In this document: piece after piece, positions 50,002-64,000 of the stretch | How the letters are laid out: each line of letters starts with the position of its first letter | How positions within the stretch are numbered: the first letter of the stretch is position 1 | Source of the DNA: Corynebacterium ciconiae DSM 44920 | Lineage (GTDB): Bacteria; Actinomycetota; Actinomycetes; Mycobacteriales; Mycobacteriaceae | Direction of reading: 5' to 3' | Assembly (NCBI RefSeq): GCF_030440575.1 | Contig: NZ_CP047189.1 | Span: 2,232,001 to 2,296,000 of the forward strand | Length of the DNA stretch: 64,000 nucleotides | Notes under the pieces: generated by a model | Databases searched by the model: none | What the model saw: the letters and a program-made list of their open reading frames with translations, nothing else | Told to the model about the DNA's origin: nothing | Program-made: the position numbers and the translations under genes

Positions 50002-50311
50002 GAAGAAAATCCCTCCATAGAGTGTGGTTGGTGACGCATCCTCTCGAGGCGACCGCCGCAGCTCAACCACGGTGGCAGCGAGGCTGCCTACTGGTCGATC
50101 CGAAATGTGCGCTTTGACCCTTATTATGCCAGCTTTAGTGCGCCATCGCAGTACCTATTTCGCCCCAAAACACGTGAAAAACCACACATTCGGACATGAG
50201 CGGGAGCTAAAATCGGGCCCGCATGTGTGTAAACAAAAATCGCGGGCCTGCGCTGCGACCCCCATCGCACACCCACCCGAAAAATGAGCAGACAAGCTCG
50301 CATCCATTTCC

Positions 50312-50317
50312 TAGTAT
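50312..50317 (+). promoter_or_regulatory. -10 box, probably leaderless promoter
   Basis: TAGTAT ends eight bases before ATG 50326, putting the transcript start at the start codon. This supports ATG 50326 over ATG 50284 for the following gene, because the box lies inside the longer frame. Confidence 0.45.
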
Positions 50318-50325
50318 CTAGGGAC

Positions 50326-51762
50326 ATGACTAACTCGGGCCTCACCTTGGATCAGCTGCGCGCAGAGATCGACCGCGCGAACCCACCCACCCCCGTGGAA
50401 CGCGCCTCCGTACTCCTCGCCGCCACCGATCCCATCGCACCCGACTGGGAGGAGGCCGACTATGCACAGCTCCACACGCTGCTGGCGGATCTCTACGCCG
50501 AGGTCCTCAGCCTCGATCTGCATAGCATCGAAATGAACCGCGCCCCATCCCAAGGGGCGTTGTTGCGTCAGCTCAACCACCGCCAGCTCGCCGTGGCCAT
50601 GGTCCTCGGCCGCTCCTCCGCGCTGCTCTCCACCCAAGCGTGGTCAGCCTGCACCGACTTCTTCGAGCAGTCCCCCACCTTCACCCAGCGCAAGGCCCTA
50701 CTTGAAAGGGAGAAGTCCGAGGCACTGCGTATTCTCGAGGTGTTTTACACCCACTACACTGCCGCTGAGCAGAACGCTGCCGAGCAGCAGCGGGACGTCG
50801 ACAAGCGCCAAGCCGAAGAGCGCGCGGCCGAAGCACACCAGCAGCGGGAGCTTAACTGCCTGAACAGCATGGCCGACTACTTTGGCGACCAGGCCTACGA
50901 GTCGGGCAGCCGCATGGCGGAGTTCCCGCATGACCTCGACACCTATTTCGCGCCGCTGGCTACCGCCGATGCGCAGCAGATCACCCAGTGCGCCACGTTG
51001 TTGAACGAGCACATCTGGGCCGAAGCTCGAGGCAATGAGATGATCCCCCCAGCGGAGGTGCCCGAGTATGCCGCTCGGTTGGATCGTTTCGTGTTGGCCA
51101 ACAGCGCCGGTAGGCCTGATTTCTCCGCGAAGCTCGAGGCGCTGCGCCCGTGGCTGGATCTGATCCCGCTGCTGCCTGCACCGATGGTGTCACAGTGCCC
51201 CGCGCTCACCCGCTATGTGGCACTGGGCGAATACGTGGATGCGCAGGCCCGCAATCCCGATGATATTCCCAGCGTCCTGCCGCTTTTTGAGACGTATGCG
51301 GACGCCACGCTTCACTTCAATGATTACAAGCGGACAGGGGTGGTCTTGGTACAGATGTGCCAGCTGGCTAAGGCACTCGGTAGCGAGTACCACCGTCAGA
51401 TGCTGGATAAGGCCCTGCCGATCCTGCACGATGCCTGCTTTACGGAGCACGTCTCGGCGGTGGCGACGCAATACATCTATCTGGTGCGCGAATCAGTCGA
51501 CCAGTACCACAACGCAGGCAATCCCCAGGCGGCGTTGCAGGAAGCGGACAACCGCAGCGGCATGTTCGATATCGATCAGCTGCCCCCAGCCGCGGCGACC
51601 CAGCTGGCCTACGTATACGAGCACCATGCGGCGCTGCTGCACCAGCTCTACGGCCCGCGCGCCTCGGCGCCGCAATTTAAAAAGACCTTGCGGGCTTTCC
51701 GCAGGCTGGGCATGGATGCAGATGCCCACCGCGTGAAGCAACGCTTCACCGCTGGGTCCTAA
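50326..51762 (+). CDS. Unknown helical repeat protein
   Basis: A 478-residue soluble protein with no signal peptide or membrane helix. It is almost entirely helical. Residues 140-185 are a charged Gln/Glu/Ala-rich coiled-coil segment (EQNAAEQQRDVDKRQAEERAAE), flanked by TPR-like helical pairs up to the C-terminus. I recognise no catalytic motif or family. It lies between fba and the S66 peptidase gene and has its own promoter. Codons near 50797 contain CGTCGACAAGCG in a frame reading DVDKR. Confidence 0.65.
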   Translation: MTNSGLTLDQLRAEIDRANPPTPVERASVLLAATDPIAPDWEEADYAQLHTLLADLYAEVLSLDLHSIEMNRAPSQGALLRQLNHRQLAVAMVLGRSSALLSTQAWSACTDFFEQSPTFTQRKALLEREKSEALRILEVFYTHYTAAEQNAAEQQRDVDKRQAEERAAEAHQQRELNCLNSMADYFGDQAYESGSRMAEFPHDLDTYFAPLATADAQQITQCATLLNEHIWAEARGNEMIPPAEVPEYAARLDRFVLANSAGRPDFSAKLEALRPWLDLIPLLPAPMVSQCPALTRYVALGEYVDAQARNPDDIPSVLPLFETYADATLHFNDYKRTGVVLVQMCQLAKALGSEYHRQMLDKALPILHDACFTEHVSAVATQYIYLVRESVDQYHNAGNPQAALQEADNRSGMFDIDQLPPAAATQLAYVYEHHAALLHQLYGPRASAPQFKKTLRAFRRLGMDADAHRVKQRFTAGS

Positions 51763-51795
51763 TACATCCGCGCGCCCCAGCGAGCCTTACACCGC

Positions 51796-51801
51796 TATAG
51801 T
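51796..51801 (+). promoter_or_regulatory. -10 box of the S66 peptidase gene
   Basis: TATAGT ends eight bases before ATG 51810, again the spacing of a leaderless transcript. The GGGCGGGC between box and ATG is not a good Shine-Dalgarno. Confidence 0.5.
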
Positions 51802-51809
51802 GGGCGGGC

Positions 51810-52832
51810 ATGAAACTTGCGATCATCTCCCCGTCCTTTGCCGCCGCTGGGGCATTTCCCGAGGTGTACGCGCAAGCGCTCACCCGTCTGCGAAAGCTCG
51901 GTATCGAACCCGTGGAGTATCCCACCACCCGCAAGGTGGGGGCCTCCGCGCAGGAGCGGGCTCGCGATGTCACCGCGGCCTTCGCCGACCCGAGCATCGC
52001 TGGAGTGCTGGCTGTGATCGGCGGTAATGATCAAGTGACGGTGATCCCGCATCTTGACGACGAGGTGATTCGCAGCAACCCCAAACCTTTCCTCGGCTAC
52101 TCGGACAACACGAACCTGCACAATCACCTGTGGCAGCTGGGAGTGCAGAGCTTCTACGGCGGCTCCAACCACGTCCATCTAGGATCCGGGCCGCGCATCG
52201 ATCCCGAGCATCACGCGTCTTTTCTGGCCGCGCTACGCGATGGCGGCCAGCTAGAGATCACCCCCGTGGAAACCTCGGAGGACTTCGGGGTGGACTGGAC
52301 CCAGCCCGCCGCCCTCGATAGTTATGGTCACCGTCGCCCGGCGCGCCCGTGGCAGTGGCGGGGTGCGCGCCGCAGCGTCACCGGCCCCACCTGGGGCGGG
52401 TGCTTCGAGGTGATCGACCAGCTCGCCATGTCCGGTCGCATGCCCTCCTTGGAGGCACTCAACGACCACCTCATTCTCCTCGAGGCAGCCGAATCGCTCA
52501 CCCCGCCGGATCAGATCATGCGGCGTGTTCGGGCTCTCGGCGAATGGGGGCTTTTCGACGCCGCCTCGGGTGTCATCATCGCCTCCCCTCCGGTGAGCAC
52601 GCATGACATAGTCCCCTCGCCCGAGCAGCAAGACGCTGATTGGCAGGCCCAGTGCGATGTGGTGTTTGGCCAGCTCGAGCGCTATAACCCCGAGCTGCCG
52701 GCTGTGTTTGGGGTGCCCTTTGGCCACACCCGGCCGCAGTGGGTGCTGCCCTATGGCGGGCAGATCACCCTCGATGGGGCGCAGCGCCGGATTGTGGCCG
52801 ACTACGAGCTGAACTATCCGCGTCGGCGGTAG
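51810..52832 (+). CDS. S66-family peptidase (LD-carboxypeptidase/MccF-like)
   Basis: A 340-residue protein. The nucleophile Ser is in FLGYSDNT, the catalytic Glu in LILLEAAE and the His in PFGHTRPQ: the Ser-Glu-His triad of LD-carboxypeptidases and the microcin C immunity protein MccF. VIGGNDQVTVIPHLD is the conserved GG-loop. No signal peptide is present, which fits recycling of cell-wall tetrapeptides in the cytoplasm or detoxification of peptide-nucleotide antibiotics. The 3' end overlaps the convergent membrane-protein gene by 19 bases. Confidence 0.85.
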   Translation: MKLAIISPSFAAAGAFPEVYAQALTRLRKLGIEPVEYPTTRKVGASAQERARDVTAAFADPSIAGVLAVIGGNDQVTVIPHLDDEVIRSNPKPFLGYSDNTNLHNHLWQLGVQSFYGGSNHVHLGSGPRIDPEHHASFLAALRDGGQLEITPVETSEDFGVDWTQPAALDSYGHRRPARPWQWRGARRSVTGPTWGGCFEVIDQLAMSGRMPSLEALNDHLILLEAAESLTPPDQIMRRVRALGEWGLFDAASGVIIASPPVSTHDIVPSPEQQDADWQAQCDVVFGQLERYNPELPAVFGVPFGHTRPQWVLPYGGQITLDGAQRRIVADYELNYPRRR

Positions 52833-53293
52833 CCAAACCACGCCTGGTTGAAGGGCAGCCACAGAATAACGGCCGCCGCGACCGCGAGGAGGGTGGCGAT
52901 CCACAGCGAGCCCACCACGATGAGGAAGATCGTGACCACGGACACCGCCGTCAGCAACCACCGGCCCCACACCTGGGCTTTGAGCACACCCACCACCCCG
53001 GTGACGATAACAACGATGGACACCACCTGCGCGATCACCAGCAGGTCGCGGGCATTAGAGCGCATCAGCTCCTCAACGAGGCTGTACAGCAGCCAGCCCA
53101 CCAGCGCCGCGTAGAGCGCAGCCGCACCCCACACGGTCCACGGGGCGGACAACACCGACGTGGCGGAGAAGCTCGGCGAGTACTTCTCGGTGCGATCGTG
53201 CACCACGCCCGTGGTGTAGGAGCTCGCCGACTGGGGCGTGGCGGGTGGGGTCTGCTTGGAAGAAATTTCCCACTGGGGCTCATTCGGAGTCAT
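52814..53293 (-). CDS. Four-helix membrane protein ending the GTPase operon
   Basis: A 159-residue protein. About 48 hydrophilic residues (Pro/Ser/Thr-rich) are followed by four hydrophobic segments, about residues 50-72, 84-104, 109-128 and 130-148, and a basic end YRRRG. Its ATG overlaps the GTPase stop (ATGA), so it is translated with the operon. I know no family. Position and size make it a candidate membrane-acting or anchoring component of the system, but that is inference. Confidence 0.65.
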   Translation of the reverse strand: MTPNEPQWEISSKQTPPATPQSASSYTTGVVHDRTEKYSPSFSATSVLSAPWTVWGAAALYAALVGWLLYSLVEELMRSNARDLLVIAQVVSIVVIVTGVVGVLKAQVWGRWLLTAVSVVTIFLIVVGSLWIATLLAVAAAVILWLPFNQAWFGYRRRG

Positions 53294-54327
53294 CGGCGTT
53301 CACTCTCTTTCAACGCGCCGCGTTCGCGCAAGATCCACAGCAGCGGATCGAGACAACGGTAGGGGGCAATTCCTTTACGGCTGAGGCGCTCACCCACTGG
53401 GGCATCGCCCAGCGAGGAGACCGCGAAGTAGGAGTGCCGATCATGGGCATAGGCGGCCTCGACCTTGTTCAGCAATCGGCCCGCCTTCATGTAGCTCAAC
53501 AGGGATTTCACCTCAAGATCCAACACCTTCTGGGCGTCGAGGTTGTAATCCCAGCCATTATCGCGGCGGAAGGCCGCGCCAGAATTGCCCATGATGGCTT
53601 TCCATTCCCCTTCGGGCATGCGCTCCAGGATCTGCAGCGAGTCGAACTTTGAAATCGTCAAAGCTAGGGGCGGGCGGGCATCGCCGAGGATGCGCATCAA
53701 ATTAGAGAACACATCCTCCGGGTTGCCGCCGAGCCCATCCTGGCGCGGCACCAACCCCTGCACATAGACCTGCACTGAGGGAACCAGCAGCGGGTCGAAG
53801 AGCATGATCACTAGGTCGGCGTAGCAGAAGAAGCTCAGTGCCTCCCGATCCACGGCGGGGTTTTCTAAGTCCTCGCCGGCGACGTCGCGAAGCACCACAT
53901 AATGCGGGCGCTCCGTGCCGTCACCATCGCGCCAACGACCGAGGGAGAAAATGAAGGGATCACGCTGATAGGCATCCTCCTGGGCGCTGGTGGGGGTGGG
54001 CGCCATCTGCTTCATCTCCACATACAGCGGCTGTTCATAGTGCTTGGCGTAGCGCTGCTTGGTGGATTCTGTCACCGGCTCCACCACCATGCCCGGGAAC
54101 TTTTCGGCGGCGAGCATCTCCAGCTGCTTCACCACCACAGCCAGGTAGAGGCTCTTGCCCGTGGCGCGGGCGCCAGCCATCACCACACAGTGCACCACGG
54201 CCTCGCCCCAGTCGGCGGGCAGCTGTTCCCCAGAGCGGGTGGTGGTGGGGGCGGTATCGAGATAGCGGAACGTATCGGGGCAGCGCGGGCCCGCATACAC
54301 CGACGGGTAGTAATCGGGGGTCACCAC
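53290..54327 (-). CDS. P-loop GTPase of a multi-gene system (DO-GTPase2-like)
   Basis: A 345-residue soluble protein. The P-loop GARATGKS at residues 52-59 is preceded by a hydrophobic strand (VVHCVVMA). The G3-like DVAGE is at 148-152 after strand HYVVLRD. TISKFD at 224-229 stands where GTPases have NKxD, with Ser for Asn. The last 80 residues are helical and include FAVSSLGD, a G5-like SSL. The pattern fits the TRAFAC-like double-GTPase families that travel with GAP1 proteins in actinobacteria. It has a GTG start overlapping the vWA gene by 7 bases. Nucleotide preference and role are inferred. Confidence 0.7.
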   Translation of the reverse strand: MVTPDYYPSVYAGPRCPDTFRYLDTAPTTTRSGEQLPADWGEAVVHCVVMAGARATGKSLYLAVVVKQLEMLAAEKFPGMVVEPVTESTKQRYAKHYEQPLYVEMKQMAPTPTSAQEDAYQRDPFIFSLGRWRDGDGTERPHYVVLRDVAGEDLENPAVDREALSFFCYADLVIMLFDPLLVPSVQVYVQGLVPRQDGLGGNPEDVFSNLMRILGDARPPLALTISKFDSLQILERMPEGEWKAIMGNSGAAFRRDNGWDYNLDAQKVLDLEVKSLLSYMKAGRLLNKVEAAYAHDRHSYFAVSSLGDAPVGERLSRKGIAPYRCLDPLLWILRERGALKESERR

Positions 54328-55307
54328 AGTTGTCCTCCCTCATTGATGGGGCTCATTCTCATCCGGTTCTCGCCGCCTAGAGGATCAGACGCGGCGGGCT
54401 CGTTCAGCTCATCGGCACACAGCCAGTGCACCAGCACCTCGGCCTCATCGTGCAGATCGGCGCGATCGCCAGCACTCAGTGCCTGGTGGAGAGCATCGTC
54501 GATCACCAGCACATTTAAGGGGTAGCGCTCGCCGTAGGCGTTGCGATACATATCGGCTTCCTCGCGGGCGTGCGGTCCGAGCACGATCACGAGGGTGCGT
54601 CGACCAGGCACATGCAGCGCAGGGCGGAGGTGGGTGCTGAGCACTGCCACGCAGTCCTCGGATGCGAGCGAGGAAAGATCCGCGCCCACGGTGGTGCGCG
54701 CCTGCTCAGTGGGAGTGCTGTGATCATCCACGGTGATGGAGAAGTACTCCGACACCCCCTTGAGGATCTCGTGCACTGGGGAGAGATCCACCTCGTGCAG
54801 CGCCGAGGCCACCGAGGCCGAATCGTCCATCCACACGCTTGCCCGGCGCACCGCGGCTGCCGGGGCCCCAATGGTGGTGAGCGCGGAGTAGACGGTGGTG
54901 GTGGAACGCGAGGATGTGGTGGAAATGCCGGAATCCACCGCACTGATCTGCACCGACTCTCCACTTGGGGAGAGGGTGAGCACGGTCTTCTCATTCAGCC
55001 CATCGAGCCGAATCTCCTCGGTCTGCACCGTCACCGGTTTCGCCGTGGCGGGCTGCAGCACCCGCATGATCACCGAGTGATCCGGCGGGAACTCCGCCCC
55101 CTGGGCCGGTACGAGCACCACGGTGACATCTCCCTGCAGCTCCGTGATGACGGTATCGGAGGAACTGTACTGGTTATGGGTGAGTTGGCCACGCACCTCG
55201 AGGCGCATATCTGTTTTCTCGCCGCGCACCCGGGTGGCGTTGATCTTGATGAAATCCCCAAGGGGCAGCTCGTAGCTGTGGCCGCCGCTGAGAGTAACGG
55301 TATTCAT
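54321..55307 (-). CDS. vWA-like protein with MIDAS motif
   Basis: A 328-residue soluble protein. Residues 1-145 are beta-rich, possibly a FHA/C2-like sandwich. From about residue 155 a Rossmann-like part begins with strand RASVWM and DDSAS at 161-165, a D-x-S-x-S MIDAS motif as in von Willebrand A domains. Later strands CVAVLSTH, RTLVIVLGP and LNVLVIDD fit the fold. It probably binds a divalent ion and mediates protein contacts with the GTPase or GAP1-like proteins. AAAGGA precedes its ATG; the next gene overlaps its stop. Confidence 0.6.
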   Translation of the reverse strand: MNTVTLSGGHSYELPLGDFIKINATRVRGEKTDMRLEVRGQLTHNQYSSSDTVITELQGDVTVVLVPAQGAEFPPDHSVIMRVLQPATAKPVTVQTEEIRLDGLNEKTVLTLSPSGESVQISAVDSGISTTSSRSTTTVYSALTTIGAPAAAVRRASVWMDDSASVASALHEVDLSPVHEILKGVSEYFSITVDDHSTPTEQARTTVGADLSSLASEDCVAVLSTHLRPALHVPGRRTLVIVLGPHAREEADMYRNAYGERYPLNVLVIDDALHQALSAGDRADLHDEAEVLVHWLCADELNEPAASDPLGGENRMRMSPINEGGQLW

Positions 55308-55340
55308 GTCCTTTAACTACCTTTCTCTGATCTCGCTGCC

Positions 55341-57092
55341 CTATCCGCGCAGCAGCCTGTGGAGTTGGGGGCCGACACAGCGAACGATCTCGCGATTCTC
55401 TGCCTCGCCCTTAAGCTTGTCTACTGCCTCTTCAATGCTGCGGAAAGGCGGCCGTAGCGGGTCACGGTAGAGCATTTTCTCAACCGGCTCGCGGTGCACG
55501 AGGAGATCATCTACTTCCTTGGCAAGGAAGGTGTGCAGGCGGTCGAGCTCGTGGCGATCAAGATCCAACAGCTGCCCTGGGCTGTCGCAGGCGTGCACAT
55601 CATTGATCAGCGCCACCAAGGCGATGCGGGCCCGCAGGCGGAGAATATCGTCAGTGACGGGCTCCACCGCTGCCAGGCGGTTCATCCGAATCGCAATCCG
55701 AGTGTTAGCCGCGGCCTCAGCCGGGTGTTCCACGTTGAACCACTGCGTCATCAGCTCCACAAAGGCGACCAGCGGCATCCGAGCATGACGAAGATCATCC
55801 TCGGTGACCACGAAGGCGCTGGTGTGCGCCTCACCCGGCCGCAGCTGCCCGGGAGTAGCTGGACGGGATGTCGTCTGCGCGGCAGGCTCCTGGCTCAGAG
55901 CTGCCAGAAATTCCTCATCACTTTCGGGATCGTCCTCGTAATCGCCCCTCGGGCTCGCAGTCGTTGGCGCCGACCACTCGTTCTCATGTGGCAGCGGTGG
56001 CTCCGAAAGCGGCGGGGCCGCAGTGAAGGGCGAGCGATATTCCTGGGTCTGATCAGCAGGCGTGCTCTCGGTACGCGGCGGGCGCATCCCGCGCTCGGCC
56101 GCCGGTGCTTCGGCAAAGCGTGTCTCGGGTATGGCCATGCGTTGCGCCCCGCGCTGCTCGGCGATGCTTTCGCCGCCGGCCGCGCTCCCAGCCGCGCCAC
56201 TAGTCTCGTCTCTGGTCTCTGGCCTGCTGTCACTTAAAGCCCGCAGCTCCTCAGGCAGCGGGGCGGTCACATCCAGTACCACCGCGGGTGCGGGCGCGTT
56301 ATCGCGCGCAGCCTGAACATGATCGGCACGCACTGCCACCAGCTGGGCGGCGGAGCCGAGAATATCGCTCAGCCGCTCGGGGTTGTGGAAGGTGGAAAAC
56401 CCGATGCGCTCACCCAGTGCGCGATAGATTGCCGCCACCCAGAGTGGGGCTTCCTCCAGCGGGCAGGCCACAACCACCGGGGTGGTGTCCCGCAGCACAG
56501 CCACGGCGGCATCCACATACTCCCGGCGTGGCCCACCACTGGTGCTGGGAGCAAGATTCTCCCAGGGCACAGGAAGCGATCCTTCGGGTTCCTCGGCAAT
56601 AAAGCGCTGCAGCACGCTCTCGTCTACCGGCCCAGGCTCGGTGAGCTCGGCGGGAAGCGAGGCTGCGTCCACCTCGCGTTTGCCGAAGGGAACCGGGATC
56701 TGCGGGGAGTACATCATCCGGATCGGATCCGTTTGCTCGCCCGAGTCATGAACCTGCACAAAGGTAAACACGTTGCCGGGCCTGCCGGAAGAGTCCTGCC
56801 CAGCATGGCAGGAAGCATAAAAGGCCCATACTTCCGCGCCAGTGTCATCGATCACGGGCAGCCAGGCGAAACGCCGATTCAGATGCGCGATTTCTGCACT
56901 GCTCGGGTAGTTGCGGTAGCGGATGCCGTCGACAAGCGCTGAAGGGATGGTGGGGCGCAGCTTCTGAATGAGTTGTTGGGTGATGCGGCCAGTGGTGGCG
57001 CCCACACCCCAACCACCCGCGCGGGTGGCGCTGCGGCCGAAGGAGGCGAAGCTGAAGGTTCCGAGCACCTGCTGTGACAAGGGTGCAGACAT
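55341..57092 (-). CDS. GAP1-N-like GTPase-associated protein
   Basis: A 583-residue protein. Residues 1-115 (FSFASFGRSATRAGGWG, GIRYRNYPS, FYASCHAGQDSSGRPGNVFTFVQV) resemble the N-terminal domain of the GTPase-associated protein 1 group as I remember it. Residues 115-270 form a middle alpha/beta region (PVVVACPLEEAPLWVAAIYRALGERIGFST). Residues 275-400 are Pro/Glu/Ser-rich and probably disordered, and the end is helical. Its ATG overlaps the preceding stop by one base. The family link is from recall and needs a profile search. Confidence 0.6.
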   Translation of the reverse strand: MSAPLSQQVLGTFSFASFGRSATRAGGWGVGATTGRITQQLIQKLRPTIPSALVDGIRYRNYPSSAEIAHLNRRFAWLPVIDDTGAEVWAFYASCHAGQDSSGRPGNVFTFVQVHDSGEQTDPIRMMYSPQIPVPFGKREVDAASLPAELTEPGPVDESVLQRFIAEEPEGSLPVPWENLAPSTSGGPRREYVDAAVAVLRDTTPVVVACPLEEAPLWVAAIYRALGERIGFSTFHNPERLSDILGSAAQLVAVRADHVQAARDNAPAPAVVLDVTAPLPEELRALSDSRPETRDETSGAAGSAAGGESIAEQRGAQRMAIPETRFAEAPAAERGMRPPRTESTPADQTQEYRSPFTAAPPLSEPPLPHENEWSAPTTASPRGDYEDDPESDEEFLAALSQEPAAQTTSRPATPGQLRPGEAHTSAFVVTEDDLRHARMPLVAFVELMTQWFNVEHPAEAAANTRIAIRMNRLAAVEPVTDDILRLRARIALVALINDVHACDSPGQLLDLDRHELDRLHTFLAKEVDDLLVHREPVEKMLYRDPLRPPFRSIEEAVDKLKGEAENREIVRCVGPQLHRLLRG

Positions 57093-59125
57093 TAGTTCAG
57101 CCCTCCTAGGTTCACTTCGAGGGTACCGGCATCATCATCCACCACCACTCGCTGCGGGCTGCCCAGTTGGTGCCGGTGCTCATCGGCGAGGAAGACGCGC
57201 ACATAGCCGCTCTGGCCCGGGGACAACAATGCGGACCAGAACGTCTCGTCCGAGGTAGCCGCGGCCGCATTCGCGTGCGCGGCCAGCAGCTCAGGCACTA
57301 TTTTCGGCGTCGGCTCATCGCTGCCAGAATTCGTAGTCAGTGAGGTGAGCAGCGGCTCCCCGTCTTGGGCGTGCAGGGGCAAGCGCGAACGGTTGTACAC
57401 CAGCACGAAGCTGGGTGGGCGCTCATCCTCAAAGCCCTCGCGCCACAGCCACACCCCCAGCTCGAGACCAGGGCGATCGGCTCGCTGGCGAGTGCGGATC
57501 CTGTAACGGTAGATCCACAGCCCGTCGTAATTCAGGGTGGTTTTCTCCCCCGTCACGGGCGTGCCGCCGAAGTAGAAACGCGGCTCTAGCTCCACAATAT
57601 CGCCTAGGTTGCTCAGCTCTAGACGCACCCCACCTTGGCGGCGATAGTCCTCCTCCACCAGGTAGCGATCGATGCGGCTGCGCGAGGTGCGCACGTGCAC
57701 CACCGACGCCCCCTTGGGCCAGTCGAAGGTAACCAGCTGGCTGGAGACCCGCTCGTGCAAGGTCGCCTCGGCGATGGACTCCACCCGGTTGACCACCTGG
57801 TAGCTGCCCACTTGGAAAGAATCGCCCACCACATGCACCGGCACGCAAAACACCTGGGACCACTCGCCCGGCCACTGCACCACAGCGTGGTGATCCTCGC
57901 CGGGATTGTACTGGTCGATTTCATCGAAATTGTAGGTGTGCACCCACTTGGTGGAGCCCAAGGCATCATCGTCCAGAATGTGCCGCTCTTCCACCACTTC
58001 GAGCGCCAGATCCGCCTGGGGCGCTTTCTCGGTGAGATACACGCGCACCTCGCCCATCGACGGCACAGCCCACATCAGGCTGATCTGGTCGCCCTTGCTA
58101 CTGGGCAGGCGCACCGCTTCTTTCATCTCAACCTGTTGAATATTCGCCGAGATCTGCACTTGCGCAATCTCAGAGCCCTCGCCCACTCGCCGGCTCCCTC
58201 GGAACTCGAAGGTGGGAAAGAGCTGGAACTCGTAGGTTTTACCGCGCTTGGCTACGGTGTGGGTGAAGTTCCTCAACCCCACCCCCGAGGGCACGCGGTG
58301 ACGGGGATCGTACAGCGGCACATCGGAGGTGGATACGCGGGCATACACCTCAACCTGATCTACGCCATGAGGCAGCATCCACGAGCCGGTGACCGTGCCG
58401 TTTTTATCCTCTACCAGGCCGATATTGCGCGGCGGAAGCCCCACCGCCTCCTCGCCCACCAGCACCGGCTGCACGGCGAGGGTACCGGGGGCGGAATCAG
58501 CTGCATAGGCCCACACCGCATAGTGACGCATTCCCACAGAAGCTGGAATCACCTCGCGGAACGCACGGCCGCGGGTGTGCACCAAAATCGTGCCATCCTC
58601 GGGGCTGAGCGCGCCTTCGCCCACATGCCCCACGAGGCGATAGAGAACATACGGCGAGGAGGTCGGCAGCTCGTCCCAATACACGAGCACCTGGGTGCCC
58701 TCCTCGGTGATAGCCTCCACCTCCACCTTGAGCATTCCGCAGGGGCTGTCCACTTGGTGCGCGAAAGGCGCAAACCGGCGGCCCCGCAGCTTCTCATCCA
58801 TAAACTCCGCTGGGTTGACCTGTGGTTTCTCCACCACTGGCCCCTCATCGAAGTTCCAATCATCTACGTCATCTGAGCTTGTCGACGCCACCTCCCCGTC
58901 CCGCTCGCGCACATCCTCAGCGCTGTAGACGTTCTGCTCTGCAGTCGCTGCGGGCTGCTCGGTGGTGTACTTCTTGCCGTTGAGCATTGCGGTGACGGCA
59001 TCGATGTGCTGCGGAGCGGAATCGCCAAGAATGGCGGCCACCTGCTCACGACTCGGCGCAACTAGCTTGCTGAGCTGGGCGATGGTATCCGCACTGAAGC
59101 CCGTTGCCCATCTATTGATCGCCAT
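57092..59125 (-). CDS. Protein with FN3-like beta-sandwich repeats
   Basis: A 677-residue protein without signal peptide or membrane helix. Residues 1-50 are helical (TIAQLSKLVAPSREQVAAIL), and 55-100 acidic. From about 125 on there are four or more units of roughly 90 residues, each with a VxVxWxxP-like strand and a Tyr-rich strand such as HYAVWAYAAD or YEFQLFPTFEF. These look like fibronectin type III folds. Intracellular FN3 arrays suggest a scaffold. It lies 45 bases after the 949-residue gene with its own Shine-Dalgarno and overlaps the next ATG. VASTS near residue 80 is encoded by the repeated motif. Confidence 0.6.
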   Translation of the reverse strand: MAINRWATGFSADTIAQLSKLVAPSREQVAAILGDSAPQHIDAVTAMLNGKKYTTEQPAATAEQNVYSAEDVRERDGEVASTSSDDVDDWNFDEGPVVEKPQVNPAEFMDEKLRGRRFAPFAHQVDSPCGMLKVEVEAITEEGTQVLVYWDELPTSSPYVLYRLVGHVGEGALSPEDGTILVHTRGRAFREVIPASVGMRHYAVWAYAADSAPGTLAVQPVLVGEEAVGLPPRNIGLVEDKNGTVTGSWMLPHGVDQVEVYARVSTSDVPLYDPRHRVPSGVGLRNFTHTVAKRGKTYEFQLFPTFEFRGSRRVGEGSEIAQVQISANIQQVEMKEAVRLPSSKGDQISLMWAVPSMGEVRVYLTEKAPQADLALEVVEERHILDDDALGSTKWVHTYNFDEIDQYNPGEDHHAVVQWPGEWSQVFCVPVHVVGDSFQVGSYQVVNRVESIAEATLHERVSSQLVTFDWPKGASVVHVRTSRSRIDRYLVEEDYRRQGGVRLELSNLGDIVELEPRFYFGGTPVTGEKTTLNYDGLWIYRYRIRTRQRADRPGLELGVWLWREGFEDERPPSFVLVYNRSRLPLHAQDGEPLLTSLTTNSGSDEPTPKIVPELLAAHANAAAATSDETFWSALLSPGQSGYVRVFLADEHRHQLGSPQRVVVDDDAGTLEVNLGGLN

Positions 59126-59170
59126 GGGGTCTCTCTTTCCTAAACAACAATCTCGCGGCGGGTGCGAGGC

Positions 59171-62020
59171 CTACAGCAGGGTGGAGGGGCCGGGGAATCC
59201 ATCGGAGTGCTGGCTGTCACGTGCGCTATCGGGGCCGGGGAAGGTGTCTTTCTGCGAGGAGAACGCAGTCCAGACGAAGTCGGCCTCACCTGGGAACTCG
59301 GCGTCGCTGGGGTTGAAATCCTCCACCGGGGCAGTGCTTTCGGCAAGCGGCACCAGCACAGACAGCTTCGCCACCGAGCCGAATTGCTGCTTGATCACGC
59401 TGCGCGTGAGGGTGCCGCGGCGAGAATCCGAGTAGTGGGTTCCGCTTTTGTCCTGATCGATGCTGGTTGCACCCTTTGTGGCGCCCAGAGCGCTGAGGGC
59501 TTCTGCGGGAAACTCCACATCGGCGCGATCCGGCTCCACCAGTCCTGCGAAGAACTCACTGCGATCCACCGTGTGCTCCCGGCCTTGCTCGAAGAAAGAG
59601 GCCTGCGGCAGGTAGCTATGAACATATTCGGCCGTGTTCTCCTGGCCGAGCGCATCAATCCAGCGCTGCTGCTCCTGCTCGGAGAGCTCTGGGATGGTCT
59701 CCGCGGCACACTGGGCGAGCCGGTCCAGCGCCGAGCCCGAGCCCAAGCCATTGAGGCCGTAGAGATCCGACACCCGCTGCTCGCGGCCACCAGTGTTGGA
59801 AGCCACCTGGCGGGCCAGCTCGCCCACCGTGCGCTCGAAGGCACTGCCCGCCCAGCCCTCGCGGCACAGCGACTGCCGCAAGGTGTGAGTAAGTTCGCGG
59901 CGCTTCTCCGGATCGGCCACCGCCCGACCCAAGCGTGCCGAGCGCGGCATGCCCGAGGTGGGGATCTCCTTCTTCACCCGCGAGTCGCGGGGCGCGCCAA
60001 AGGGATAGGCAAGCACTCGACCCAGCACCAAGGACCACGCCAAGAACTGCTGGTAGGCATCCGTGATTCGAGAAACATCACCGAGAGCAGCGTAGTAATT
60101 ACGCATATGGATCTCTAGGTTCTGCTCCTGCAGCTGCCGCTGGCGCAATAAGTCATACACCCCGCGTCGGGCCTTGGCGAAGACGGACATTTGCACCGCA
60201 ACAATGATCGCGGTGCTCACCACGGCCAACAGCACCGTCCACTGCCAGTTCAGGCCCTGCCAGCTCTCGAAAGGCACCCGCCAGTCCGGCTTGTAGTAAC
60301 GGATGCAGCAGTAGATGAGCACCAGCATGATGACCGCCCATACTCCGCTCAGCATGCGTAGTTTCGAGGTCAGGCGGCGATTGATGGCCGCCGTGTCCTG
60401 GCTGCCAAGCTGGCTCAACGCCTGCTCGCAGCCCTTCACCGCCTCCCATGCAGACCCCACGCGTTGTTGGGCCTGGGAGAGGTAGTCCAGCAGGCCGGAG
60501 CCCACCTCGGAGGCGAAGCTGGTGCCGTTGCGGTCGCGCCACTGCTGGAAATCCTCACGCAGATCAAGCACCTCCGGATCCGAGGTGCGGGCCACAGCCT
60601 TGGTGAGCTTCCGATCAAAACTATGCACCCGCACCGCATCATAGGAGTGCAGGAACTTCTCGGAGTCCTCCCGCTTCATGAACTCATCCAGAATCGGCAG
60701 ACCGGCATCGAAACCGCGGTCGCTATCCGGCACCACCTCAGCGGAGGTTCCCACCACCGCGGGGTTGGAATTATCGACCAGGTTGGGCAGCCGATCATGG
60801 AGACGATCCGAGCCGTCAATCAACGTGAGGGAGGCATCGCAATAATCCGCCCACAGGCTGGACAAGTTCGTCTGCCTGCCCACCTCAATACCGGCCTTGG
60901 AGGAGGTCTTCATCAGCTGGGCCGAGCTGGAGCGCAACTTTTCAATGCTGGCCTCGCCGCCAGTTCTGCGGCCGCTCTGCCCCATCACCACGCGGATTGT
61001 GCTCTCTTCGCCATAGAGGCCCTTTTGCAGCATGTCACGCATACGATCCGCCACGCCCTGCTGTAGCGAGGAGCTCCAGATGGAGCGCGACCCCACTGTG
61101 GCGCGGAAGAACTCACGGAGAAACGCCTTCACCGCGGCTGCGCCGCTTTGCTCTACCTGCTCGGCGCTCTTCGGCGGCTCCTCCTGGGTGAGCAGCTCGG
61201 ACTGGTGCGCCTGCAGTAGCTCATAGGCGTAGCGGCGCACCATCTCCTCGCTGTGCTGCTGGGGAACGGTTTGTCGGCCATCCCGCATGTGCGTCACCGG
61301 GATGTCTTCGCTCACTGCGATGACCGCATCGCGGAGTTCCTCCTCCGCGTCGCTGGCATCCAGATCACGGAAGAAACAGCGGGCCAGCACGAAGGAATCA
61401 GCAAGGCCTTGGATGATCTCGCTGCCATCCTCCTTCAGCACCCCCACCACCGGGGCGGCGGAGAACCGGCCACACAGGCCAAGCACGCTGGGGGCATAGG
61501 CTCGAGCCACCTCGAGGGGGCCATCCTCGCGCTGAATACGGCGGGAGGAGGTAAGAGGAGAATCGGAATCAAACGCGGTGAGCGCCACCGTGGCCCAGCC
61601 TTCGCGATGTGCGGGCTCGGTGGTGGGCAGCGGCAGCTGTGGCATCAACATGCGCACCCGCCGCACCGAGTTGTGGGAGGCCTCGGACTGGATCAAGCGC
61701 ATCCATTGATCCACAGCCTCGTAGTCCGTCTCCTCGTGCGGATCCACTAAATGCACCACAAGGATCAGGCCCCGCATCTCCCGCAGCGCATCCGACAGCC
61801 GCACGAAACTTTCGCAGGAGCGCGCCTGCTCTACGGGTTCTTCCATCTTCCGCAGCATCGAGCCAGTATCGCCACGGCCGGGCTCTTGGGCGCCGGCGTC
61901 AATCCAAAAGGTGCGCGAGATGTGCCCCAAGGCGGTGAGGTCTGCGCACACTCCCCGCAGCTCGCCGACGAGGCGTCCAGCGCCAATGAATACAACGTCT
62001 ATGTCCTTGGTGTAACTCAC
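59171..62020 (-). CDS. Large two-helix membrane protein of the GTPase operon
   Basis: A 949-residue protein starting with GTG 62020, overlapping the previous stop (GTGA). The N-terminal 180 residues look like a Rossmann-type alpha/beta domain (VVFIGAGRLVGELRGVCADL, LILVVHLVDPHEETDYEAVD). A long helical region follows. Two membrane segments lie near 558-578 and 592-612, so the 550-residue N-terminus and 335-residue C-terminus should both face the cytoplasm. The C-terminus is helical then acidic. I know no characterised relative. It is the probable membrane anchor of the system. Confidence 0.6.
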   Translation of the reverse strand: MSYTKDIDVVFIGAGRLVGELRGVCADLTALGHISRTFWIDAGAQEPGRGDTGSMLRKMEEPVEQARSCESFVRLSDALREMRGLILVVHLVDPHEETDYEAVDQWMRLIQSEASHNSVRRVRMLMPQLPLPTTEPAHREGWATVALTAFDSDSPLTSSRRIQREDGPLEVARAYAPSVLGLCGRFSAAPVVGVLKEDGSEIIQGLADSFVLARCFFRDLDASDAEEELRDAVIAVSEDIPVTHMRDGRQTVPQQHSEEMVRRYAYELLQAHQSELLTQEEPPKSAEQVEQSGAAAVKAFLREFFRATVGSRSIWSSSLQQGVADRMRDMLQKGLYGEESTIRVVMGQSGRRTGGEASIEKLRSSSAQLMKTSSKAGIEVGRQTNLSSLWADYCDASLTLIDGSDRLHDRLPNLVDNSNPAVVGTSAEVVPDSDRGFDAGLPILDEFMKREDSEKFLHSYDAVRVHSFDRKLTKAVARTSDPEVLDLREDFQQWRDRNGTSFASEVGSGLLDYLSQAQQRVGSAWEAVKGCEQALSQLGSQDTAAINRRLTSKLRMLSGVWAVIMLVLIYCCIRYYKPDWRVPFESWQGLNWQWTVLLAVVSTAIIVAVQMSVFAKARRGVYDLLRQRQLQEQNLEIHMRNYYAALGDVSRITDAYQQFLAWSLVLGRVLAYPFGAPRDSRVKKEIPTSGMPRSARLGRAVADPEKRRELTHTLRQSLCREGWAGSAFERTVGELARQVASNTGGREQRVSDLYGLNGLGSGSALDRLAQCAAETIPELSEQEQQRWIDALGQENTAEYVHSYLPQASFFEQGREHTVDRSEFFAGLVEPDRADVEFPAEALSALGATKGATSIDQDKSGTHYSDSRRGTLTRSVIKQQFGSVAKLSVLVPLAESTAPVEDFNPSDAEFPGEADFVWTAFSSQKDTFPGPDSARDSQHSDGFPGPSTLL

Positions 62021-63999
62021 AACAAACCACCACCGAATCCGGAGAACTCATCATCATTGTCATCGTGGGCAGAGCTGAAGCCTGTAGGCATCGAGCTGGT
62101 GGTTTCCGGCTGGGCCGCCACCCGCTTCGCCTCCTCGAGCAAGCCATGCAAAAGATTCGCCATCTCCACCACATCGGCGGCGAAGTCGCGATAGAAGGGC
62201 ACCTTGGACGCCCGCTCCCTGCTGGTCGGGTGCGCCCAAGACTTATCCACCGAGGAGCTACCGGGAAAGCCCAGATCATCCATTGGGGCCAGCATCTCTG
62301 CGGTGTGCAGCGCGCGCTCCAGGTGCTCCTCCACCATGGCGGCACGCTCGGAGATGCTCTCGCCACGGATGGCGTTGCGCTCCGCTGGCCAGACGCCGGT
62401 GCGGAAGAAGTTAGCCAAAGTCGTGACAGCCGGGTGTCGCAGCCCGCCATCAACGTTGCTGGCCTTCTCGGGGGAGTCGTCGAAAAGCGCGCGCAAAGCC
62501 CAATAGGGATGCAGGGAAGCTCCGGGGGCGCCGCTGCGATCCCGTTCGTGGCTATTGGCATACGCCAGCAGGATCGATTCCAGCACCGCCGGCATCCAAT
62601 CCAACTCATTACGCATCTCGGCTGGACCGGTCAGCATCGGCTGCGGGAAGTGATACCAGCTCTCCTGGGCCTGGCCGGCGCTGTGATGGCCGGGCAAGCG
62701 CCCATAGACGTGAGCTGCGGCCTGCATAGTCCCCCGGTCGGTAACGAAGACTCGGCCGGTAGCCATGCCCAAGAGCCAGCCACCCACCAGCGCCTTGCGC
62801 TCCTCATTACTCAAAGGCAATGCCGCCTCAAGAGTGTGCGTGCGGCGCAAATTCCAGAAATCGGAGCGATTCTGGCTGGCCTTCCACTCCTTCGCAATCT
62901 GCGGCAGCAGGGAGCTGAACACAATCGGCGAATAATTCGGGTAGGAGCCGAAAATATCGATGCGCTGAATATTGGTGCTGTCGCGCAGAGCATTATCGAA
63001 CTTGGTGCGCGACTGCCCCTCGATCTTGCTCGAGCTCAACGTGCTCTCTAACTCGGCGGCCACGCGCTGATCCTTGAAAGGAATCTCCGAGAAGGAATAG
63101 CGATAGGTCACGCCCTGGCCGTGCACCGCCTGCACCATGGTGGCATCCACCGCCGCCAAGGGGCGGGACAGGGACAGGGCCTTGGAGAACTCGCTGCGGA
63201 GTCGTGCGATGCGCTGCTCGTACTCGGCGTCACTCAGCATCTCATCTTGGGTCATGTAGCTGCGCAGATCTGCGGAGATGAAGCGCTCAAAACTCTCTCC
63301 GGGGCGCATCACCCAGATGCGGGCGCGCTGCAAAAGATCGCGGGGACGAATCCGCGCCGCGAACACAGCATTCGACGTTTCGCGGCTCTCCCCGGAATTA
63401 TCGGGGTTGGTGCGCAAATGCTTGCTGGCCCAGCCTGCACGGTTACCGCTAGAGATCTCGCCGGCGGCGCGGGCCAAGGTGTTGCGCGGTGCCTTGATGG
63501 CGTCGGTGGTTTCCCACTCGCCCTTAATGATGGAGCGGGTGATACGGGAGGTGGCCTCGTCGAGATCAGAGACGTTCGCGTCCTCGCCAGAAACAGCCTC
63601 CAACAGCTGTGCCTCGAAATCCTCCGGGAAGTTATCTACCTCGGTGATCACGATCTCGTTCACCGAGCCACGGAAACGATCACTGACCTTCTCATCATGC
63701 GGCCGCGGCCACGCTGCCGGTTCTTCCGTGGCCACATCCGCCAAATCGAGGGTTGATTCCTTGGCCGCATCGGCGGCGCGCACATCCTTGTGGGCGCGAT
63801 CCAACTCATCGCGCAGGCGGCGTAGTACCCCAAAGCGGAAGTCCTCCAACACCGGACTGAGAGTACGGGCCAGCTCCACCAGCATGGCGGTGCGCAGCTG
63901 CGGGCTGTAGCAGCTCAGCAGCTGCTCCACTACGGCATCGGCATTATGAATACGCTTCTTGCCGGTCACCGGGTGCAGCGCCTGGTCTGCATCCGAAGG
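62017..63999 (-). CDS. C-terminal part of a large protein, possibly tubulin-like
   Basis: The frame is open to the right edge: a GTG at 63969 exists, but ten codons upstream are also open and read naturally (PSDADQALHP). About 660 residues are visible. They are mostly helical with many charged residues; AMLVELARTLSPVLEDFRF and WVMRPGESFERFISADLRSYM stand out. The final ~20 residues are acidic and Gly-rich. Large tubulin-like proteins of actinobacteria have a C-terminal region of this kind and neighbours like these. The diagnostic GTP-binding N-terminus is outside the window, so the call is from context only. Confidence 0.5.
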   Translation of the reverse strand, partial: PSDADQALHPVTGKKRIHNADAVVEQLLSCYSPQLRTAMLVELARTLSPVLEDFRFGVLRRLRDELDRAHKDVRAADAAKESTLDLADVATEEPAAWPRPHDEKVSDRFRGSVNEIVITEVDNFPEDFEAQLLEAVSGEDANVSDLDEATSRITRSIIKGEWETTDAIKAPRNTLARAAGEISSGNRAGWASKHLRTNPDNSGESRETSNAVFAARIRPRDLLQRARIWVMRPGESFERFISADLRSYMTQDEMLSDAEYEQRIARLRSEFSKALSLSRPLAAVDATMVQAVHGQGVTYRYSFSEIPFKDQRVAAELESTLSSSKIEGQSRTKFDNALRDSTNIQRIDIFGSYPNYSPIVFSSLLPQIAKEWKASQNRSDFWNLRRTHTLEAALPLSNEERKALVGGWLLGMATGRVFVTDRGTMQAAAHVYGRLPGHHSAGQAQESWYHFPQPMLTGPAEMRNELDWMPAVLESILLAYANSHERDRSGAPGASLHPYWALRALFDDSPEKASNVDGGLRHPAVTTLANFFRTGVWPAERNAIRGESISERAAMVEEHLERALHTAEMLAPMDDLGFPGSSSVDKSWAHPTSRERASKVPFYRDFAADVVEMANLLHGLLEEAKRVAAQPETTSSMPTGFSSAHDDNDDEFSGFGGGLL

Positions 64000-64000
64000 A

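Follow-up and report, generated by a model that had tools for sequence, protein, structure and literature searches.

The window, a 64,000-nucleotide stretch of the genome of Corynebacterium ciconiae DSM 44920 (a member of a single-celled genus), ends in a run of closely spaced genes on the minus strand. The preliminary description had taken these for a seven-gene operon, and in the list of open reading frames and translations of the window all seven lie where it placed them, with the junctions that it gave. When the sequence past base 64000 is added, the seventh (62017-63969) proves to be the C-terminal part of a 1220-residue gene, C, extending to window-equivalent position 65679, and two further genes lie upstream. 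The operon thus has nine genes rather than seven and is truncated by the window end:

Gene A, window-equivalent 68462-69061, upstream of B: 199 residues, three hydrophobic segments
Gene B, window-equivalent 65735-68416, beyond the window and upstream of C: 893 residues, von Willebrand factor A (vWA) protein, probable signal segment, single transmembrane segment
Gene C, C-terminal part in the window at 62017..64000, minus strand: 1220 residues, tubulin-like (Tubulin_2)
Gene D, 59171..62020, minus strand: 949 residues, two-helix membrane segment
Gene E, 57092..59125, minus strand: 677 residues, FN3-like, occupying the FNIII position
Gene F, 55341..57092, minus strand: 583 residues, GAP1 protein (GAP1-N2 and weak GAP1-M)
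Gene G, 54321..55307, minus strand: 328 residues, a seemingly all-beta N-terminal part followed by a vWA-like part
Gene H, 53290..54327, minus strand: 345 residues, DO-GTPase2-like GTPase
Gene I, 52814..53293, minus strand: 159 residues, membrane protein with hydrophobic segments

Neighboring genes overlap by 4 bases at 62017-62020, 7 bases at 54321-54327 and 4 bases at 53290-53293, and share a single base at 57092; elsewhere 33 bases (55308-55340) and 45 bases (59126-59170) lie between them, and beyond the window 55 bases separate C from B and 45 bases B from A. This spacing suggests that the genes are co-transcribed. One weak promoter-like site lies upstream of A, on the opposite strand, and there was no Rfam match. 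A scan of the genome contigs returned one locus. The G+C content of the operon equals that of its surroundings (0.633 versus 0.627) and so gives no sign of a very recent foreign origin.

Proteins of the operon

Full-length C matched the Pfam family Tubulin_2 over residues 5-379 (E 2.6e-41), bearing out the tubulin-like protein that had been suggested as a possibility, and its predicted GTP-binding loops are GCGGSG (residue 8) and AGGSGA (residue 184). B matched the Pfam vWA family (E 2.6e-6) and has hydrophobic segments at residues 14-32 and 626-644; such segments are present in four proteins of the operon, A, B, D and I. The large two-helix membrane protein of the preliminary description is D, with two strong segments at 555-573 and 596-614. 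Elsewhere, proteins that carry a trypsin domain have an N-terminal part of the D family: a homologue search with D alone gave one relative besides D itself, and searching with a D profile brought in two such trypsin-bearing proteins. In two other actinobacteria, B, C and D occur as a vWA-tubulin-D set without the GTPase/GAP1/FN3 module; in the class sample two candidates for D were scored per genome, and weak D genes may be missed there.

The motifs GARATGKS, DVAGE and SKFD, read earlier as those of a P-loop GTPase, sit in the 345-residue protein H. Across 39 aligned orthologues the key positions of these motifs do not vary; DVAGE, which supplies the Walker B glutamate that goes with the TRAFAC-type motifs of a DO-GTPase, is invariant in them. 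The window copy of H matched neither DO-GTPase model, but 34 of the 39 orthologues matched DO-GTPase2 (PF19993) with E values no higher than 0.1 (the best being 2.8e-11), and through them H is predicted to be DO-GTPase2-like. The window copy has no N-terminal CxxC pair; an orthologue in genome G520 has a weak double-zinc-ribbon match. The GAP1-N-like assignment of F likewise stands, with a Pfam match to GAP1-N2 above the cut-off (E 2e-15) and one to GAP1-M below its own (E 0.0014).

A MIDAS protein had been recognized in the set. The direct Pfam match to vWA lies in the upstream gene B; in the vWA-like part of G the MIDAS aspartate D161 is invariant across the aligned orthologues, 5 of 33 of which gave weak vWA_2 matches. 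E occupies the FNIII position, and its description as FN3-like is weakly borne out: fn3 matched 2 of 38 orthologues (best 0.0098), a profile search of PDB sequences with E gave no fn3 match, and HRDC matched none of the 38 at E up to 0.1. A four-helix protein had been claimed for I, where a simple scan finds two strong hydrophobic segments and not clearly four. I lies outside the strict core because it is recognized in only 32 of 74 scanned loci.

AlphaFold models of D (mean pLDDT 37.3; shallow alignment of 4 sequences) and G (38.2; 2 sequences) were too poor for use, and in D only the pair of long helices around the membrane segment reached pLDDT 70-80. A homologue search with G alone gave one relative apart from G itself. 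Profile searches of PDB sequences with four alignments (A1-A4) gave no trustworthy match, and no NCBIfam match passed a cut-off.

Distribution and exchange of the A-H block

Of 242 Corynebacterium genomes, GAP1-N2, Tubulin_2 and H each mark the same 73. A-H lie in one order in 68 of these carriers, and contig ends interrupt the remaining five; in fully covered loci of other genomes the block is complete, on one strand and in the same order in 67 of 67. The genes do stay together in other genomes, and an accidental grouping of unrelated genes was dropped as an explanation. Genomes G420 and G520, from two other genera, also have a complete A-H block on one strand and in this order. The non-carrier G029 retains a 48-residue relic of H with two stops.

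The history of the block departs from that of its hosts. Across 41 genomes, distances for the operon components correlate with each other at 0.86-0.97 and with host markers at 0.59-0.68. Mean identities are 0.23-0.50 for A-H versus 0.52-0.88 for six markers. The marker tree covered 60 genomes, 41 of them carriers and 19 not, with at most six genes of the fda-clpB region for each; the genomes were hand-picked among those whose fda position was listed, and G013 was left out for having too few markers. In some genomes the fda-clpB region lies next to the operon, and recombination there could affect the markers as well. Operon tree and marker tree reject each other in AU tests based on 1000 resamplings, too few according to the IQ-TREE warning. 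Genomes G130 and G199 illustrate the departure, with GH76 90% and PyrE 94% identical and tubulin 37%. A component history that is shared and departs from the host markers argues for exchange or replacement of the block as a unit.

Could differential loss mimic such transfer? At least two ancient operon lineages would then have been inherited vertically and sorted by loss. There are indeed two deep operon lineages (separated by a branch of about 0.94), losses do happen, as the relic in G029 attests, and in one lineage the carriers near a groEL-type gene have a site in common. Yet all 73 carriers hold a single Tubulin_2 gene and none holds two; between G056 and G075 identity is higher for tubulin (71%) than for GH76 (68%), though operon proteins change faster on average; and an rpoC-adjacent site is occupied by one lineage in G018, G171, G182 and G183 and by the other in G172 and G206. 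We therefore consider it unlikely that the apparent transfer is mostly differential loss. The sequence comparisons indicate instead that Corynebacterium species carry, lose and exchange the A-H block as one unit. A characterized housekeeping operon was dropped as an explanation, the block being mobile and present in only 73 of 242 genomes.

Relation to known systems and possible function

Kaur et al. (2020; PMC7159879) predicted GAP1-N2/DO-GTPase systems that include an actinobacterial tubulin theme, tubulin-type systems making up about 52% of GAP1-N2 neighborhoods. Judged by its encoded domains, our operon is a member of this predicted kind. The earlier suggestion of a predicted NTP-dependent conflict system was thus right in kind, the make-up being that of the tubulin theme. 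Shared with the theme are GAP1-N2, a DO-GTPase, a single tubulin that is extended by a long C-terminal part, a membrane vWA protein, a second protein in the FNIII position and a single gene neighborhood, which is mobile here too according to trees, distances and sites. In the theme the C-terminal domain of the tubulin is helical, and the vWA protein carries FNIII and a beta-rich domain; in B the membrane vWA part was matched. Whereas the theme has HRDC on one FNIII protein, E orthologues have no HRDC match and weak FN3, and H lacks the N-terminal CxxC pair of GTPases whose zinc ribbons are usual but not required. Variable effectors are stressed for GAP1-N2 systems, but here the eight-gene set is fixed (D, G and A are always present): A-H are constant in all 67 fully covered Corynebacterium loci and only I varies in recognizability. 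Kaur et al. also tie these systems to multicellular bacteria, unlike the genus studied here. The FN3 and four-helix members had been thought possibly undescribed; FNIII, like vWA and tubulin, already figures in that paper, while its tubulin-theme passages mention neither D nor the small membrane proteins A and I, which makes D a partner outside the components listed there. The HSP70 theme of the same source shares GAP1-N2, DO-GTPase2 and fn3 proteins, and we see it at a second locus of G056 (L076), with an adjoining HSP70 gene and without A-D.

Makarova and Koonin described the Tubulin_2 (FtsZl1) family and its vWA and GTPase partners in 2010 (PMC2875224); in that paper a reviewer cites C. glutamicum cgR_2627 as a vWA protein of this sort, and GTP-dependent filament formation is left open. 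Our operon resembles FtsZl1 operons in its Tubulin_2 protein with a long C-terminal part, its vWA protein with an export segment and its GTPase. That source has FtsZl1 vertically inherited in actinobacteria, whereas in Corynebacterium we find exchange or replacement. The open-access literature searched yielded no experiment on a tubulin-type GAP1-N2 system. A MoxR-vWA system was considered and dropped, no AAA+ family being matched in A-I at the thresholds used.

We propose that the operon encodes a horizontally exchanged, membrane-associated GTPase-GAP1-tubulin system, one multi-protein machine used against invaders, and give this reading about an even chance of being right. B and D would tether an assembly of tubulin-like C to the membrane, H and F together would form a GTP switch that licenses or resets this assembly, and E and G would act as adaptor or sensor arms. 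An invader or, less likely, a breach of the envelope would then cause the assembly to seal off or break the membrane locally. Because the block is patchy, all-or-none, replaced between species, decayed to a relic in one genome and faster-changing than the markers, a conflict system fits better than housekeeping. The conflict reading is weakened by the PADLOC-DB scan, in which no family matched any of the seven window proteins (D to I and the part of C inside the window), by the fixed gene set with no killing or cutting enzyme recognized in A-I, by a G+C content that shows no very recent foreign origin, and by the link of GAP1-N2 systems to multicellular bacteria (PMC7159879) in view of a single-celled host. 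A sensor role for E is weakened in turn, since E is not the fastest-changing operon protein, as a single sensor might be, and its FN3 matches are weak. Rather doubtful in our view is a narrower version in which the B-C-D trio, as a membrane-anchored tubulin-like assembly, would carry out the response of a mobile immune machine, D alternating with trypsin-bearing forms and the DO-GTPase, GAP1, FN3 and second vWA proteins constituting a separable licensing module.

A fixed gene set and the lack of a PADLOC match would suit a non-defensive machine for membrane remodeling or envelope maintenance, dispensable in many species, in which tubulin-like, vWA and GTPase proteins shape or repair the envelope. 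This is the reading given in PMC2875224, and the four proteins with hydrophobic segments agree with it. Against such a machine, which we regard as possible but tentative, stand three observations: only 73 of 242 species genomes carry the block, closely related species have replaced it horizontally, and the operon proteins are poorly conserved. The likely export segment and predicted extracellular vWA part of B, together with transport or signaling roles proposed by a reviewer in PMC2875224, could also point to an apparatus for contact, secretion or surface display, with vWA outside and a tubulin-like scaffold inside, serving cell-cell or host contact. No secretion ATPase or channel was recognized in A-I, and we find such an apparatus quite improbable.

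New here are the common distribution in 73 of 242 genomes, the fixed A-H order, the exchange of the block as a unit, D as a partner and the separability of vWA-tubulin-D. The fixed eight-gene set, this separable core and the kinship of D with trypsin-bearing proteins are a guide to the parts worth testing first, and since a C. glutamicum control genome gave matches for GAP1-N2, Tubulin_2 and DO-GTPase2, function can be tested in a tractable laboratory species. If the version with B-C-D as the acting part of an immune machine is true, the operon would represent bacterial immunity through GTP-switched cytoskeletal assembly in a single-celled genus.

Composition of the operon

The seven packed minus-strand ORFs of the preliminary description are real: they occupy 52814-63969 of the window (2232001-2296000 of a single-contig genome of 2.58 Mb, whose closest relatives with a name belong to Corynebacterium). 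Four of their junctions overlap, by 4, 1, 7 and 4 bases, and the other two leave 33 and 45 bases between genes. They are not the full set. In the sequence right of the window, the seventh ORF proved to be the C-terminal portion of a gene of 1220 aa, and upstream of it are genes of 893 and 199 aa (gaps of 55 and 45 bases), giving nine genes, here lettered in order of transcription:

Gene A, minus strand, 199 aa, first
Gene B, minus strand, 893 aa, second
Gene C, minus strand, 1220 aa, third
Gene D, minus strand, 949 aa, fourth
Gene E, minus strand, 677 aa, fifth
Gene F, minus strand, 583 aa, sixth
Gene G, minus strand, 328 aa, seventh
Gene H, minus strand, 345 aa, eighth
Gene I, minus strand, 159 aa, ninth and last

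The tubulin-like member that had been thought possible is C (Tubulin_2, E-value 2.6e-41), and the GAP1-N-like protein is F, which matches GAP1-N2 (2e-15) and additionally GAP1-M, under that model's cut-off. B has a vWA domain (2.6e-6). The P-loop GTPase motifs GARATGKS, DVAGE and SKFD, as previously read, are all in H. The window copy of H did not match the DO-GTPase2 model; 34 of the 39 members of the H alignment did (E-values up to 0.1, best 2.8e-11), and H of the non-Corynebacterium genome G520 gave matches under cut-off to DO-GTPase2 (2e-4) and to a double zinc ribbon (8.8e-4). G has the invariant aspartate of the predicted MIDAS, with weak vWA_2 matches in five of 33 alignment members. 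The FN3-like array ascribed to E was recovered only weakly (fn3 in two of 38 alignment members, best E-value 0.0098). Strong hydrophobic segments are present in A, B, D and I, and H has one borderline segment. The G gene of a close relative, G110 (Corynebacterium sp. 74A), reads as two overlapping ORFs of ~79 and ~249 aa (locus L041, 3521-4503; also L004, 9004-9986); in other relatives it is whole.

Conservation, chromosomal sites and movement

Of 242 Corynebacterium genomes, 73 have GAP1-N2 and an identical set of 73 has Tubulin_2; the H profile gave nearly full-length matches in the same 73. A 74th genome, G029, has no operon and matched over 48 residues only, at the end of the GTPase model (G029:C1:2343690-2343836); this fragment contains two internal stops and is likely a relic, a decayed copy. 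Loci were fetched for the 72 carriers besides the window's genome. The genes stay together: A-H are complete, all encoded on a single strand and in the same order, in 67 of the 74 loci scanned, or in 68 of the 73 carriers once the window's genome is counted. Five of the seven incomplete loci are cut by contig ends, L004 is a cut repeat of the G110 locus, and L076 is a different locus. Gene I was recognised in 32 of the 74. At L076 (8077-16197), GAP1-N2 occurs for a second time in genome G056, together with HSP70, DO-GTPase2 and an fn3 protein; this is the HSP70 theme of PMC7159879, in a genome that also carries the tubulin theme.

Among 56 fda regions fetched, 55 contain fda, GH76, spoU and pyrE (L132 has fda only), and fda and GH76 are less than 1 kb apart in 47 of these 55. 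The two genes usually adjoin each other in regions without the operon at this site. The operon lies between them in the window's genome, G110, G117, G197 and G050; in G108, where the GH76 side alone was observed, it lies beside GH76. Elsewhere it neighbours a Cpn60 gene (seven loci) or rpoC (six loci), and in five loci a tRNA synthetase gene is nearby, other genes intervening. The rpoC site is occupied by one of two deep operon lineages in G018, G171, G182 and G183 and by the other in G172 and G206. The rpoC-adjacent loci (L053, L058, L043, L042, L078 and L064) belong to either lineage and to different species. In the window, the interval between fda and the operon (50284-52832, plus strand) encodes an S66 peptidase and a 492-aa protein without Pfam match; because the latter has relatives in the G110 locus, at the same site, and weakly in the G050 locus, it may have arrived together with the operon.

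Across 41 genomes, distances correlate at 0.86-0.97 between components and at 0.59-0.68 between components and three averaged markers. The tree of the operon and that of markers from the fda-clpB region are mutually incompatible in AU tests (p 1.6e-4 and 6.3e-5), and the non-carriers G041 and G037 are nested among carriers. G130 and G199 share 90% identity in GH76, 94% in PyrE and just 37% in the tubulin; for G056 and G075 the values are 68% in GH76 and 71% in the tubulin. The sites, correlations, tree conflict, identity contrasts and nested non-carriers indicate that the block is exchanged, replaced and lost as one unit; sorting of ancient operon copies is a less probable explanation. Base composition does not point to a recent arrival, since the operon (G+C 0.633) equals its surroundings in the window (0.627).

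Mean pairwise identities, which are influenced by transfer, are 0.50 for H, 0.43 for C, 0.37 for B, 0.35 for A, 0.31 for E, 0.28 for D, 0.27 for F and 0.23 for G, and 0.52-0.88 for six markers. In the close pair G000/G110, the A-I proteins are 0.65-0.91 identical and five markers 0.88-0.98. E is not the fastest-changing operon protein, which counts against it as sole sensor.

A separable vWA-tubulin-D core

In a class-wide sample of 345 genomes, Tubulin_2 was found in 23 and D in five, all five with Tubulin_2. Eight loci were fetched outside Corynebacterium. G420 and G520 have A-H in order; G505 and G318 have B, C and D, the last as two ORFs (L146, 8139-11754; L147, 5793-9405) with the break at about model position 415-475; the remaining four have gene sets that are more distant or different. 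The G505 and G318 genomes gave no match to GAP1-N2, DO-GTPase2, the H profile or the E profile; the vWA-tubulin-D core is therefore able to occur independently of the switch module. Two metagenomic proteins, 1153 and 1108 aa long, match the D profile as well (model 6-427 and 478-717, including the two-TM region), both of which run on into Trypsin_2 (1.5e-29 and 3.5e-14).

Proposed function and known relatives

Composition, linkage, joint movement and a separable core are established at the sequence level. In the mechanism we propose, B and D would be membrane anchors for a tubulin-like assembly of C, H with F would form a switch acting on that assembly, and E and G would be connectors or sensors. 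As trigger we favour an invader, tentatively; the main rival is envelope damage. Against the conflict reading, the gene set is fixed, PADLOC defence-system models gave no matches to the seven window proteins, and the host genus is single-celled. Bacterial immunity through a GTP-switched, tubulin-like assembly is a tentative and rather unlikely reading.

PMC7159879 describes DO-GTPase and GAP1 systems, among them an actinobacterial GAP1-N2 theme in which a single tubulin, helical in its C-terminal domain, is accompanied by an HRDC-FNIII protein and by a vWA-FNIII protein of the membrane. PMC2875224 names the tubulin family FtsZl1, notes vWA and GTPase partners and proposes that it remodels membranes; C. 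glutamicum cgR_2627 is mentioned by one of that paper's reviewers. A search of published open-access papers found no experiments on these operon genes. Judged from its genes and their distribution, the operon is real, conserved and mobile, and belongs to a kind known by prediction.
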